IMG/VR virus record: IMGVR_UViG_3300032516_000136
Span: 1 to 29,035 of that record
Source of the DNA: a virus
Reading direction: 5' to 3' (one strand)
Length of the DNA: 29,035 bases
Part shown: positions 6,182 through 19,281 of the stretch, one piece after another
How the letters are laid out: the number at the start of each line of letters is the position of its first letter
Numbering within the stretch: the first letter of the stretch is position 1
Notes under the pieces: generated by a model
What the model was told of the DNA's origin: nothing
Seen by the model: the letters and a program-made list of their open reading frames with translations, nothing else
The model's database searches: none
Position numbers and translations under genes: made by a program

Positions 6182-6610
6182 CTAATGCCTATCTTGAACA
6201 TTTTGCGATTTTTCCCAAGTCCTCATTCCTGCTAGTCCGAGAATCCCCAAAAGGACAGGCATCATCTCACTTAAATTTAATACAGGTAAGTCCTTCACAG
6301 GATGTCCTATTGATGCAAGAATAAATGATAAAAATGGTTGAATGACATAAGTCCATCCAAATGCACTTGCACAAATCCAGGTAATTGCTGGCCGACCACC
6401 TGATATAAACAGGTTAGAGGATTTAGCTTCTTCTTGGTTAACTTGAATTTGTGCCGTATCAACTAATGTTAAGGCTTTAAGTATTTCTTCACTATGTCTA
6501 TTTAACTCTTCCGCTAGCTTTTGTTGTGCCTCCATTTTCATCTTTGGATCTGGTATAAAATTAAGTGCTTTTTCGATAATTGGTGACAGGAAATCAAGAA
6601 ATGGTATCAT
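6182..6610 (-). CDS. Holin, GTA_holin_3TM-like, 142 aa
   Basis: The protein has a soluble helical N-terminal half (KMEAQQKLAEELNRHSEEIL) and then the family core. This is GGRPAITW at residues 71-78, a membrane segment to about 100, a loop, and a last membrane segment ending LLGILGLAGMRTWEK (120-134). This order and the GGRP...GMR-Y/W-EK ends match the 3-TM holins first described from gene transfer agents (PF11351). It would form membrane lesions for lysis. RBS AAAGGATAT. No endolysin is visible beside it, and it lies among leftward replication genes. Confidence 0.8.
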   Translation of the reverse strand: MIPFLDFLSPIIEKALNFIPDPKMKMEAQQKLAEELNRHSEEILKALTLVDTAQIQVNQEEAKSSNLFISGGRPAITWICASAFGWTYVIQPFLSFILASIGHPVKDLPVLNLSEMMPVLLGILGLAGMRTWEKSQNVQDRH

Positions 6611-10561: not shown

Positions 10562-11020
10562 ATGATTGATAATGATAAACAATTAATAAATACAATAGAT
10601 AAGAAACTCAATAAGAGACAATGGAAGTTTATTGAGTTAATGAATAAAGGATTATCTATACCAGAAGCTTATAGATTAGCTGGTTATACTGGTATTAATG
10701 CTCAACAGCCGTATCAATTGAATCATTATTTGAAAGGTAAGATAGCAGAAATAGCAGAAGCTAATGGTTTCAATCGTAATAGATTAATGGTTGAATTGAA
10801 TAAATTGATTGATTTGCCTTTGGATAATACCAAACTCAATGTAACATTAAGAGAGAAGCTATCAATCATTCGCACCCTGGCTAAGTGTCTGCCAGATGTG
10901 GACAAGCCAAAGGACAATCTGTCCAGATTTACCATTGTCAATAACGTTGTAACAACGCAAGTTGACAGTTCCCAGTTGCCATCTATTGCAACTACAAGCA
11001 TTGAAGCTGAATTAGTTTAA
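10562..11020 (+). CDS. terS: Terminase small subunit, 152 aa
   Basis: The N-terminal part (LNKRQWKFIELMNKGLSIPE, then AYRLAGYTG) is the DNA-binding helix-turn-helix seen in phage small terminases. The central LREKLSIIRTLAKCL helix fits the oligomerisation region. It would recognise the packaging site and recruit the large subunit. The length fits the family. No good RBS is present before the ATG at 10562 (upstream is AT-rich, AAGTATACTAAA), so expression may be low. It is separated from terL by two tRNAs and a small gene, which is unusual. The heptamer arrays directly upstream are possible binding sites. Confidence 0.75.
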   Translation: MIDNDKQLINTIDKKLNKRQWKFIELMNKGLSIPEAYRLAGYTGINAQQPYQLNHYLKGKIAEIAEANGFNRNRLMVELNKLIDLPLDNTKLNVTLREKLSIIRTLAKCLPDVDKPKDNLSRFTIVNNVVTTQVDSSQLPSIATTSIEAELV

Positions 11021-11179: not shown

Positions 11180-11254
11180 AGCGCTGTAGAGCAGTGGTAG
11201 CTCGCCAGGCTCATAACCTGGAGGTCGTTGGTTCAACTCCAACCGGCGCAACCA
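11180..11254 (+). tRNA. tRNA-Met(CAT), initiator-like, with encoded CCA
   Basis: A full cloverleaf is present: acceptor AGCGCTG/CGGCGCA, D stem GAGC/GCTC with a 7-nt loop, anticodon stem CCAGG/CCTGG with loop CTCATAA (anticodon 11212-11214), variable AGGTC, T stem GTTGG/CCAAC with loop TTCAACT, then A and CCA. Position 1:72 is an A-A mismatch and pair 11:24 is A:U, both hallmarks of bacterial initiator tRNA. The D arm and the stretch around the anticodon match initiator sequences closely. Only two of the usual three G:C pairs are present in the anticodon stem (29:41 is A:U). Confidence 0.88.
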
Positions 11255-11395
11255 TTTATTCCCCATAACTAAGGTTATGGTACTGAAACGAAAGTTTCAT
11301 GTATAGACTTCCTTTGCTGGGAAGGAATAGAAAGTTCAACACAATTTCCCAGGATTTAATAAGTATTCAGAAAGTACCAGGATTGCCGGTACATT
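11255..11395 (+). ncRNA. Hairpin-rich spacer between the two tRNAs
   Basis: In 141 nt four stem-loops can be drawn: CCATAAC/GTTATGG with a 4-nt loop (11263-11280); TGAAAC/GTTTCA capped by a GAAA tetraloop (11284-11299); CTGGGAA/TTCCCAG (11317-11352), which competes with CTTCC/GGAAG (11310-11326); and GTACC/GGTAC (11374-11392), ending 3 nt before tRNA-His. No ORF or third cloverleaf fits. It may be processing signals for a tRNA precursor or a separate small RNA. Confidence 0.45.
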
Positions 11396-11465
11396 GTGAC
11401 GGTAGCCTAAAGGTTAAGGCGTCCGGCTGTGAACCGGAATATGGGGTTCAATTCTCCCCGTCACC
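11396..11465 (+). tRNA. tRNA-His(GTG), slightly irregular
   Basis: The acceptor GTGACGG/CCGTCAC, D stem GCCT/AGGC, and anticodon stem TCCGG/CCGGA with loop CTGTGAA give anticodon GTG. The discriminator is C73, as in all bacterial tRNA-His. The T stem has only four pairs (GGGG/CTCC, one G-T) around TTCAATT, the base before position 1 is T rather than the usual G-1, and no CCA is encoded (CCT follows). It is probably functional but could be degenerating. Confidence 0.75.
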
Positions 11466-11482
11466 CCTTTAAGGAGAAAACA

Positions 11483-11638
11483 ATGCCATTAAAGACAGGA
11501 TCTTCAGATAAGGCTGTTTCAGCTAATATTTCAGAATTAAGTAATTCAGGGTATCCACACAGACAAGCCATTGCAATAGCCCTGTCTAAAGCTGGAAAGT
11601 CAAATAAACAAGTTAAGCACAAGAAAGCGAGTAAGTGA
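11483..11638 (+). CDS. Small DUF6496-like protein, 51 aa
   Basis: The sequence [20 protein letters not shown], then [16 protein letters not shown] with a Lys-rich tail, follows the pattern of a small basic phage protein family (MPL-KG-S-K-VS-NI-EL--G-P-KQAVAIAL--A), annotated as DUF6496. Its role is unknown; it is often near packaging genes. AAGGAG precedes the ATG at 11483. A longer in-frame start at 11429 would lie inside tRNA-His and has no RBS, so it is rejected. Confidence 0.7.
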
Positions 11639-11693: not shown

Positions 11694-12977
11694 ATGGCAC
11701 AACTGGTACTACATCCTGCTCAAAGTAAGATATTGGCAAGCAGTGCTAGATTTATAACTGCGATAGCAGGAATTCGTGGAGGTAAGACCACAATAGGTGG
11801 AATCTGGTTACTTAGCGAAATTGATAAGTTACGAGAACAGAACGAATTAGGAGATTTTTTAATTGCAGCTCCAACTTATAAGATTTTAGAACAAAGTACA
11901 CTACCCAAGTTTAAAGAGTTCTTTCCAAAGGACTGGGGAACTTGGATGGAGAATAAGGGTTATTTTAAGTTAAATTGGTTTAGACCAGGGAGTGATGAAC
12001 CTTGTCGTATTTATGTACGGTCAATGGATGAACCTGACAGTATTGAAGGAATGGATATTAGAGCTGGATGGTTGGATGAAGTTGGAAAGATGAAGTCTGC
12101 TGCATGGATTAATGCACAGGGTAGAGGATCTGTACATAAAGCTAGAATGATCCTAACCACAACTCCGTATAACACGGGATGGTTCTTCAGAGATGTGTAT
12201 CAGAAAGCTAAAGACGATAAAGACTACGAAGTAGTCATCTGGAAGTCAACAGACAATCCAGCGTTTCCAAAAGACGAGTATGAGCGAGCAAAGCGAACTT
12301 TACCCAAAGCAATCTTTGAAAGAAGATATGAAGGGAAGTTCACACGGTTGGAAGGATTGGTATATCCTGAGTTTGATGAAGAGTTCCATTGTGTGGAGCC
12401 TTTTGAAATCCCTAAAGATTGGCTTCGTTTTGGGGGGATGGATTTTGGACACTCTGTTCCTGCTGCTGTCTTATGTATTGCTCGTGATCCTGCAAGCAAT
12501 ACGTTTTATGTGTATAAAGAGTTCTATCGTTCGGAAGCTCTTTTAAAGACTTTAAGTGAATGGCTGCATAATGAGAGTTTAAAGTATGTTTTAGCAGATA
12601 CTCAAGCTGCTCAAAATATTTCTGAATTAAGATTACAATATGGTAATAAAGAAATACTTGAAGCTAATAAAGCAGTAGAGGTTGGGATACAAAGAATACG
12701 GTCATTGTTTGGGGATGGACGTTTAAAAATTTTTAGAGATAAGTGTCCTAATTTGGTTGAAGAGCTTTTAAGTTATCATTACAAGGCACCAAACGAAGAC
12801 ACACAGGATAATGATTCTCCTGTTAAGAAGCATGATCATGCTGTTGATGCTTTACGGTATGGATTCAGTAGACCGCTACAAGGTTTATATTTAAATAAAC
12901 CACAAAGGTCTAATACACATATTAAACAATATCACAGTAATTGGATGAAAGTTTCCGATTCAATAACGGGGTACTAA
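11694..12977 (+). CDS. terL: Terminase large subunit, 427 aa
   Basis: This is the ATP-driven DNA packaging motor and nuclease. Walker A is AGIRGGKTT (residues 25-33), Walker B AGWLDE (124-129) and the coupling motif TTTP (155-158). The C-terminal RNase H-like nuclease has its acidic residues in GGMDFGHS (D250), LADTQA (D302) and HDHAVDALRYG (D385). The length is typical of short forms (about 420-480 aa). The ATG at 11694 has AGAGGATA upstream at slightly long spacing. It is followed by portal with 1 nt between. Codon use is less A/T-ending than in portal, suggesting a different history. Confidence 0.95.
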   Translation: MAQLVLHPAQSKILASSARFITAIAGIRGGKTTIGGIWLLSEIDKLREQNELGDFLIAAPTYKILEQSTLPKFKEFFPKDWGTWMENKGYFKLNWFRPGSDEPCRIYVRSMDEPDSIEGMDIRAGWLDEVGKMKSAAWINAQGRGSVHKARMILTTTPYNTGWFFRDVYQKAKDDKDYEVVIWKSTDNPAFPKDEYERAKRTLPKAIFERRYEGKFTRLEGLVYPEFDEEFHCVEPFEIPKDWLRFGGMDFGHSVPAAVLCIARDPASNTFYVYKEFYRSEALLKTLSEWLHNESLKYVLADTQAAQNISELRLQYGNKEILEANKAVEVGIQRIRSLFGDGRLKIFRDKCPNLVEELLSYHYKAPNEDTQDNDSPVKKHDHAVDALRYGFSRPLQGLYLNKPQRSNTHIKQYHSNWMKVSDSITGY

Positions 12978-17097: not shown

Positions 17098-19281
17098 ATG
17101 GGTATTAAATTTCCTGAATTTGCTCCTGCTGATGGTGATGACGAAACTATATCACCTATTACCAATGCAAGAAGTGTATTAGGTGCTGATCCTATTACTG
17201 GAGCAACACGAAGAGTTACAGTTGATTCTGATCACTGTCTTTTGGTTAATATTAAAAAAGGAGATGCTTTTTCTTTTACTCCAGATAAAAGTTTAAGAGT
17301 TCAGTTTGCTAATTCAAGTCGTTTAATTTGGGATACAGAAATAGATTGGAATAAAGGATTATTAGATTCTAATTTAGAAATTTTTGGAGTTGGTTCATCT
17401 GCAGTTTTAAGACCTAAGCAGAATATCGGCATTAGATCTATTAGTTGGGATAGTGCTGCAGAATATACTTTATCAGATGTAAATAAACTTGAAATTATTA
17501 GCGGGTCTGCTAAGCTAAAAGCATTGTCTGGTAATGAAGTTAATTATGCATTTTCTAATGGTGCAGATTATACTTATGATTCGAATAAAATTATAGTTAA
17601 TGGCGGGATAGCTAAATTAGTTGGTATGGTAGGAGTTTATACACAATACCATTTAAATGAATCTTCTGGAACAACTGCCACTGATTCATCCGGTAATGGA
17701 AGAAATGGAACTACAGTTAATAATCCTTCTTGGGTAGCAGCTAAGTTAAATAATGGTTTACAATTAAATGGAACGAATCAAACGGTAAACTGTGGCGCGA
17801 TAGCTGGATTTGAAAGAACGAATGTGTTTAGTTTAGAAGCGTGGATTAAAACTACTAAAACAACTGCCCAATGTATAGTAAGTAAAATGTTATGGTCTGC
17901 CCCCTATACTGGTTGGAGATTTTTTCTTTCAGCTGGCAAACCTTATTTTAATTTATATGGAACATCAGATGTATTACAGATACATACAAATGATGTACTT
18001 TCAGATGGTAATTGGCATCATTGTATTGCTACTTATGACGGTACAAGTTTAGCTAGTGGAGTTAAAATCTATTTAGACGGTTCTTTAAAAACAAATATTG
18101 TTGATAATAATAGTATAACTTCCACAATTTTAAATAGTGCATCTTGTTATGTTGGAAGCCGAGAGAATGGTGGAGAAAGATGGCTGGGTATACTAGATGA
18201 AGTTGTAATTTATGATAAAGTGTTGTCCCAAGTAGAGGTTACATCACGATATAATTCAGGTGCAGGAACTGAAGGTGGTGGATACGATACTGGAAATCCA
18301 ACCATTGTCAATAATACAGGTTTTACCTTTGTTTCTAGTCTAGTACAATTCATAGAAACTTCTTCAAAACCCAGCGGTTCAGATATTAAATATCATATTT
18401 CTTCTGACAATGGATCTACTTGGAAATATTGGTCTGGATCATCGTGGACTATTACGGATAATACATATACGCAAGCTAATACAGCCAGCGAAATAAATAC
18501 AAATATAGGAAGCCTAGGATCTTCTGGTATTTTAAAATTTCGAGCATTATTACACTCAGATACAAGTATTGTCACACCAGAATTAGACAATATTTATACC
18601 AAAGAACTTATTACATATTCAACTCAAGATAACTTATATATTGATACAAAAGATGCTGCACAAATTATTGATTTAGCACTCCTGAATTGGCAAACTGCTA
18701 CATTTAGTTCAACTATACCAGTAAATACAGATATTAAAGTGTTATTTTCTGTTGATGGAAGAATTTCTTGGCTAACTTGGAATGGAGTTACATGGATTAC
18801 TCCAGTAGATTCTACTCTTAGAGTTAATGCTACAGATCTTACTACTGTAATAACTAATTTTAGCACTCTTCCTATAGGAATAAAAACTTTAGATATAAGA
18901 GTATTTTTAAATACAAATGATTTAAGTATTACTCCACTAATAGACAACTTAGATACAGTCATTAATGAAGGGTACAGTATAAGCGGATATTATGAGACAA
19001 ATATTTTTGATTCAAATTTAGTAAGTCAACTTTGGGAAATTTTTGACGCTAGTAAAATATCACCTTCTGGAACGTCAGTAGTTATTAAATGTAGAAGTTC
19101 AAATTCTTTGTCAGATATGGGAAGTTATGGATCTCCATTAACTATAGGTAATTCAATAGGATTAAACGGTCAATTTATTCAATTTTCAATTGAATTTGTT
19201 GGAACATTAACTGCTAGAGCTTTAGTTGACTATATTTCAGTAAGATATGTAACACCTTTGGTTTATGATATAAATCCATAA
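17098..19281 (+). CDS. Virion protein with LamG/concanavalin-like domain, 727 aa
   Basis: Residues about 183-392 form a LamG-like jelly roll: YHLNESSGTTATDSSGNGRN, then LQLNGTNQTVNCG, FSLEAWIKT, DGNWHHCIATYDG, VKIYLDG and ILDEVVIYDKVLS in the usual order. This domain binds carbohydrates or proteins on surfaces. Residues before it may be the virion anchor. Those after it are beta-rich with repeated GSTWKYWSGSSWTI-like turns, typical of fibre or decoration proteins. The position directly after the capsid suggests a head fibre or a tail appendage that binds the host. RBS TAGGATAG. The domain is sure; the place in the virion is inferred. Confidence 0.72.
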   Translation: MGIKFPEFAPADGDDETISPITNARSVLGADPITGATRRVTVDSDHCLLVNIKKGDAFSFTPDKSLRVQFANSSRLIWDTEIDWNKGLLDSNLEIFGVGSSAVLRPKQNIGIRSISWDSAAEYTLSDVNKLEIISGSAKLKALSGNEVNYAFSNGADYTYDSNKIIVNGGIAKLVGMVGVYTQYHLNESSGTTATDSSGNGRNGTTVNNPSWVAAKLNNGLQLNGTNQTVNCGAIAGFERTNVFSLEAWIKTTKTTAQCIVSKMLWSAPYTGWRFFLSAGKPYFNLYGTSDVLQIHTNDVLSDGNWHHCIATYDGTSLASGVKIYLDGSLKTNIVDNNSITSTILNSASCYVGSRENGGERWLGILDEVVIYDKVLSQVEVTSRYNSGAGTEGGGYDTGNPTIVNNTGFTFVSSLVQFIETSSKPSGSDIKYHISSDNGSTWKYWSGSSWTITDNTYTQANTASEINTNIGSLGSSGILKFRALLHSDTSIVTPELDNIYTKELITYSTQDNLYIDTKDAAQIIDLALLNWQTATFSSTIPVNTDIKVLFSVDGRISWLTWNGVTWITPVDSTLRVNATDLTTVITNFSTLPIGIKTLDIRVFLNTNDLSITPLIDNLDTVINEGYSISGYYETNIFDSNLVSQLWEIFDASKISPSGTSVVIKCRSSNSLSDMGSYGSPLTIGNSIGLNGQFIQFSIEFVGTLTARALVDYISVRYVTPLVYDINP

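Follow-up and report, generated by a model that had tools for sequence, protein, structure and literature searches.

Genes and Features Upstream of terL

The DNA analysed here (the window), a virus record from IMG/VR, is 29,035 bases long, has a G+C content of 33% and may be an incomplete fragment. ARAGORN places a tRNA-Met gene with a CAT anticodon exactly at positions 11180-11254 of the plus strand, as the original prediction had done, and the Rfam model RF00005 matches positions 11180-11251 with 64.6 bits (E 4e-12); the gene is real. In its acceptor stem (AGCGCUG/CGGCGCA), A1 (11180) faces A72 (11250) unpaired and is followed by G2:C71, C3:G70 and G4:C69, with A at position 73. The D stem (GAGC/GCUC) closes a D loop of 7 nt and contains A11 (11190) paired with U24 (11202), an R11:Y24 pair being an initiator and formylase feature. 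The anticodon arm CCAGG-CUCAUAA-CCUGG (11205-11221) has the stem pairs C27:G43, C28:G42, A29:U41, G30:C40 and G31:C39. The variable loop of 5 nt is followed by the T arm GUUGG-UUCAACU-CCAAC, and the CCA end is encoded (11252-11254).

The tRNA-Met gene had been proposed to lie between terS and terL. The downstream half of this statement stands, as the terminase large subunit gene (terL) occupies 11694-12977 (+; phrog_2, E 3e-47), with the portal and major capsid genes further downstream, whereas the terS assignment lacks a profile match. The gene just upstream of tRNA-Met (10562-11020, +) encodes a 152-aa protein that gave no match in profile searches. It is probably the small terminase subunit, since it precedes terL in the related contigs L013, L005, L007 and L010, has a helix-turn-helix-like motif at its N-terminus, and weakly resembles PaP3 TerS, the best PDB match of its low-confidence structure model (pLDDT 61), at a non-significant E of 0.17.

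The gap between tRNA-Met and terL also holds a tRNA-His(GUG) gene at 11396-11467 (+; ARAGORN, Rfam 59.3 bits), which was missing from the original prediction. A tRNA-His usually carries an encoded G-1. Here C73 is present; position 1 is preceded by T, the encoded G-1 thus being missing, and the discriminator is followed by CCT, CCA not being encoded. The spacer between the two tRNAs (11255-11395) forms several small hairpins, folds better than 200 of 200 shuffles (z -2.7), is mostly missing from L013 and belongs to no Rfam family at the gathering score. Between tRNA-His and terL, a strong Shine-Dalgarno (SD) sequence (AAGGAG) precedes an ORF for a basic protein of 51 aa (11483-11638, +), which has no family match and is 82% identical in L013.

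SD-like sites were found for 28 of the 34 genes of the window against a background of 12%. Translation initiation therefore looks ordinary bacterial, and, given this strong SD use, a Bacteroidota host looks unlikely. The capsid profile matched 3 of 380 genomes of the Paceibacterota phylum, 8 of 378 of Pseudomonadota and 0 of 375 of Bacteroidota; a scan of genome contigs with the capsid protein gave no match. The bacterial initiator closest in sequence comes from a Paceibacterota MAG (89%), a similarity too weak for naming the host. Elsewhere in the window, a 727-aa protein of the structural region (17098-19281) contains a concanavalin-like lectin domain (Pfam Laminin_G_3, E 3e-22) and is possibly a receptor- or glycan-binding part, and a protein encoded on the minus strand (6182-6610) matches the GTA_holin_3TM family (E 4e-16).

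Identity of the tRNA-Met Gene

Formylation of bacterial initiator tRNAs depends on a 1x72 mismatch, G2:C71, C3:G70 and A11:U24, and their passage to the P-site on three GC pairs of the anticodon stem (PMC7949028); A73 and G4:C69 have been added as minor formylase determinants (PMC9976931). The tRNA-Met of the window (DETERMINANTS) has all the formylation determinants and two of the three anticodon-stem GC pairs, the 29:41 pair being its sole departure from the E. coli form among the listed features that set initiators apart from elongators. The original prediction was thus right in each of its statements on the cloverleaf: the A1-A72 mismatch, the A11:U24 pair, the initiator pattern of the D arm and anticodon region, and the replacement of one GC pair of the anticodon stem by A:U.

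A CAT anticodon is shared by initiators, elongator tRNA-Met and tRNA-Ile2, in which C34 is converted to lysidine. CAT tRNAs were therefore taken from bacterial genomes of several phyla and sorted by their 11:24 pair, and the elongators were divided into Met and Ile2 by the acceptor stem, an approximate split that has no effect on the initiator decision. As ARAGORN at times gives the acceptor stem eight pairs, with a shifted register, early tallies of CAT tRNAs hold a few misread entries, which later counts drop or avoid. Alignments of 28 initiators, 25 elongator Met tRNAs and 28 Ile2 tRNAs, with cloverleaf structures set by hand, gave three covariance models of our own, trained on bacterial tRNAs only. 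The window tRNA scored 85.9 bits with the initiator model, 69.2 with Ile2 and 68.4 with elongator Met, so the split-model comparison suggested originally came out in favour of an initiator, with a lead of 16.7 bits over the next best model. The models discriminate, since a held-out bacterial elongator (L431, 1692-1763) scored the opposite way (84.2 bits with elongator Met, 76.8 with Ile2, 69.4 with the initiator model).

That the gene encodes an elongator Met tRNA or a tRNA-Ile2 only resembling an initiator is, in our judgement, very improbable. Beyond the anticodon, such a reading could appeal to the A:U pair at 29:41 and to the D loop of 7 nt, as found in many elongators. Besides the lead of the initiator model, it is opposed by the reference elongators, which have Y11:R24 and, except for a few register-shifted calls, G:C or G:U at 1:72, whereas the window tRNA has A11:U24 and A1·A72. 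Judged by its sequence, the gene is an initiator tRNA (tRNA-fMet) gene of a tailed phage.

The two unusual pairs also occur in bacteria. A29:U41 was considered as an odd defect, and this was rejected because 18 of 86 distinct bacterial initiators share it and it is common in alphaproteobacterial initiators: four Pseudomonadota genomes have initiators of the A29:U41 type ending in ...CCTGAAGG, which we take to be the alphaproteobacterial pattern. The pair thus appears ordinary and would not exclude the tRNA from bacterial initiators; a literature search brought up no paper devoted to initiators with this pair. Likewise, A1·A72 was rejected as a phage-only feature, being rare yet present in at least 2 of 398 genomes of the Pseudomonadota phylum and at least 6 of 380 of the Paceibacterota phylum, both lower bounds as the search pattern additionally demanded AGCG, CGCAA and A73.

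Conservation in Related Phages

The nearest relative (L004/L013) has a capsid protein 85% and a TerL 86% identical to those of the window, and an initiator-type tRNA-Met(CAT) occupies the same slot before terL (L013, 7257-7331); no tRNA-His is present in L004/L013. The L013 tRNA scores 68.1 bits with the initiator model, 62.8 with Ile2 and 54.6 with elongator Met. It differs from the window tRNA at 13 sites. The pairs 4:69, 7:66 and 28:42 show double compensatory changes, 6:67 and 10:25 one-sided changes that preserve pairing, and the Levitt pair 15:48 covaries; the remaining changes are A·A to U:A at 1:72, U to C at base 33 and one base of the D loop. In window-L013 alignments scored against shuffles, the tRNA reached z 16.6 and the 100 nt directly upstream only z 2.3. 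Compensatory changes in a tRNA that is kept while the adjacent DNA hardly aligns point to a maintained, functional tRNA, and the pattern of changes argues for selection on a working molecule. The L013 copy is a less orthodox initiator, with U1:A72, U4:A69 and C33 and an initiator score only 5.3 bits above that of Ile2, a possible sign of relaxed constraint.

More distant relatives indicate that tRNA-Met is dispensable, as no initiator tRNA was found in L005, L007, L009, L010 or L280-L284; the slot before terL holds no tRNA of any kind in the first four, and in L006 it is occupied by a tRNA-Thr (2730-2802). A hot spot of tRNA gain and loss in the clade thus seems to lie in the gap before terL. 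A TerL search found one distant IMG/VR relative only.

Possible Role of the Phage Initiator tRNA

Codon compensation is the standard explanation for phage tRNAs. An initiator reads start codons and not internal AUG codons, so this explanation cannot account for a phage tRNA-fMet. Late translation might be biased, or a host tRNA lost to cleavage in defence replaced; both roles, suggested in the original prediction, are plausible but putative. We consider it fairly likely that the phage tRNA-fMet provides a supplement or a reserve to the host initiator pool. No plus-strand terminator was predicted from the small terminase candidate to terL, from which we infer that the tRNA would share a plus-strand transcript with the packaging genes. 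Host RNases would cut it out of the transcript, host MetRS would charge it, and host Fmt would formylate the Met-charged tRNA. It would then serve initiation at start codons, adding to the host pool during strong late-gene expression and backing it up after loss of host tRNA through stress or defence.

A rival proposal, which we hold to be unlikely, is that the gene serves counter-defence, supplying an initiator that escapes when toxins or nucleases cut or modify that of the host; VapC-type anticodon nucleases, AtaT-type acetylases and tail cleavers are examples. The initiator tRNA is a known target of toxins, and loop changes have been described by which phage tRNAs evade anticodon nucleases (PMC10264068). 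The window tRNA also departs from bacterial initiators at sites kept in at least 90% of them (pairs 5:68 and 6:67 and base 27), and C33 is found in the loop of both L013 and the Janthinobacterium phage Donnerlittchen. Nevertheless, the anticodon loop of the window tRNA, CUCAUAA, is that of the sampled host-type bacterial initiators, so it has no change at or near a cleavage site of the kind that marks nuclease evaders (PMC10264068), and evasion by loop mutation does not apply. Moreover, phages that face the initiator-cutting VapC-LT2 are reported, in general, to avoid having a tRNA-fMet gene (PMC10264068). On account of the unchanged loop and this avoidance, we favour supplementation or back-up of the host pool over toxin evasion; given its divergent acceptor stem and base 27, the tRNA may still evade toxins that read the acceptor.

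The patchy distribution of the gene, missing from L005, L007, L009, L010 and L280-L284, together with the loss of U33 and G4:C69 in L013, is what might be expected if a host tRNA had been captured and, bringing no present benefit, were a passenger or in decay. This seems rather improbable in view of the way three stem pairs and the 15:48 tertiary pair changed in compensation, the much better conservation of the tRNA than of neighbouring intergenic DNA, and the retention of CCA and of every formylation determinant in the window copy. Scarcely credible is a purely non-translational role as an attachment site or as processing punctuation of the late transcript. tRNA genes do act as att sites of prophages, and the inter-tRNA spacer has a better fold than its shuffles (z -2.7), but no integrase was found among the window proteins searched, and the gene, intact down to its encoded CCA, sits within the structural operon instead of beside an integrase.

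If pool supplementation is to be separated from replacement of damaged host tRNA, phage tRNA-fMet genes offer a clean test, and a 29-kb contig that has an initiator among its only two tRNAs is simpler to use for this purpose than a jumbo phage carrying dozens of tRNAs.

Initiator tRNAs of Phages and Bacteria

The original prediction implied that phage initiator tRNAs are rare, which was not supported. Each of two pattern scans of viral contigs gave at least 120 matches to initiator-type CAT tRNAs. In eight named phages checked singly, CAT tRNAs with A11:U24 and no G:C at 1:72 were found: Cronobacter GAP32, Pseudanabaena Pan5, Sinorhizobium phiLM21, Mycobacterium PegLeg, Janthinobacterium Donnerlittchen, Gordonia GodonK, Xanthomonas Elanor and Clavibacter CN1A. 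Their annotation reads plain tRNA-Met or is absent; unannotated initiator-type tRNAs lie in Elanor (L450, 1495-1570), CN1A (L451, 295-371) and Pan5 (L445, 402-474), where the beginning of a CDS named omega transcriptional repressor overlaps with the tRNA gene. Published examples of tRNA-fMet come from T5 and cyanophages (PMC4810235), the Erwinia jumbo phage pEa_SNUABM_47 (PMC7760394), Sinorhizobium phiLM21-like prophages (PMC12429752) and the huge phage 1-SewaA (PMC10747093). The tRNA-fMet of the window is thus a further example of a phage-encoded initiator, already known in many phages.

The two scans, the second of which left the anticodon stem free, were pooled (contigs L015-L134 and L470 onwards). 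Among the matches listed, 145 distinct viral initiator-type tRNAs have G30:C40 in 145 cases, G31:C39 in 129 and G29:C41 in 43, the 29:41 pair being A:U in 80 and U:A in 22. Copies from the second scan only (52 among the matches listed) have G30:C40 in all 52, G31:C39 in 36 and G29:C41 in 10. G29:C41 is thus lacking in 102 of 145 viral initiators among the matches listed and in 18 of 86 bacterial ones (present in 43 and 68, respectively; Fisher p 2e-13, host phylogeny ignored). A·A at 1:72 was seen in 15 viral tRNAs among the matches listed and in 2 bacterial ones (p 0.03). As both samples are partly pattern-selected and host phylogeny is uncontrolled, these contrasts are no more than a lead. 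We regard it as distinctly unlikely that phage initiators form a functional class of their own, always with G30:C40, having shed G29:C41, with a varied acceptor stem and a weak 1:72 like A·A, selected to work alongside the host initiator or to escape from it, be it by evading toxins or by changing the fidelity of start-site choice at late stages of infection. The tRNA-Met of the window would then be one clean example. The pattern at G30:C40 and G29:C41 is directly testable in existing E. coli initiator-replacement systems.

With bacterial initiators such as those of E. coli metY/metZWV, the window tRNA has in common a weak 1:72, G2:C71, C3:G70, G4:C69, A73, A11:U24, the CUCAUAA loop, G30:C40, G31:C39 and an encoded CCA. 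It differs from them in A1·A72 in place of the usual C1·A72, in A29:U41 in place of G29:C41, and in C5:G68, U6·G67, C27:G43 and the 7-nt D loop. C33 replaces U33 (loop CCCAUAA) in L013 and Donnerlittchen (L448), which belong to different phage groups. Several of the published phages with tRNA-fMet are larger or carry many tRNAs, whereas the window is a short contig with two tRNAs, located just before terL. phiLM21 likewise has an initiator-type CAT tRNA, with A11:U24 and G1·A72. In Donnerlittchen and Elanor (Mesyanzhinovviridae) such a tRNA adjoins terL, as it does in the window; in these phages of a different family, however, it lies just after terL and not before it.
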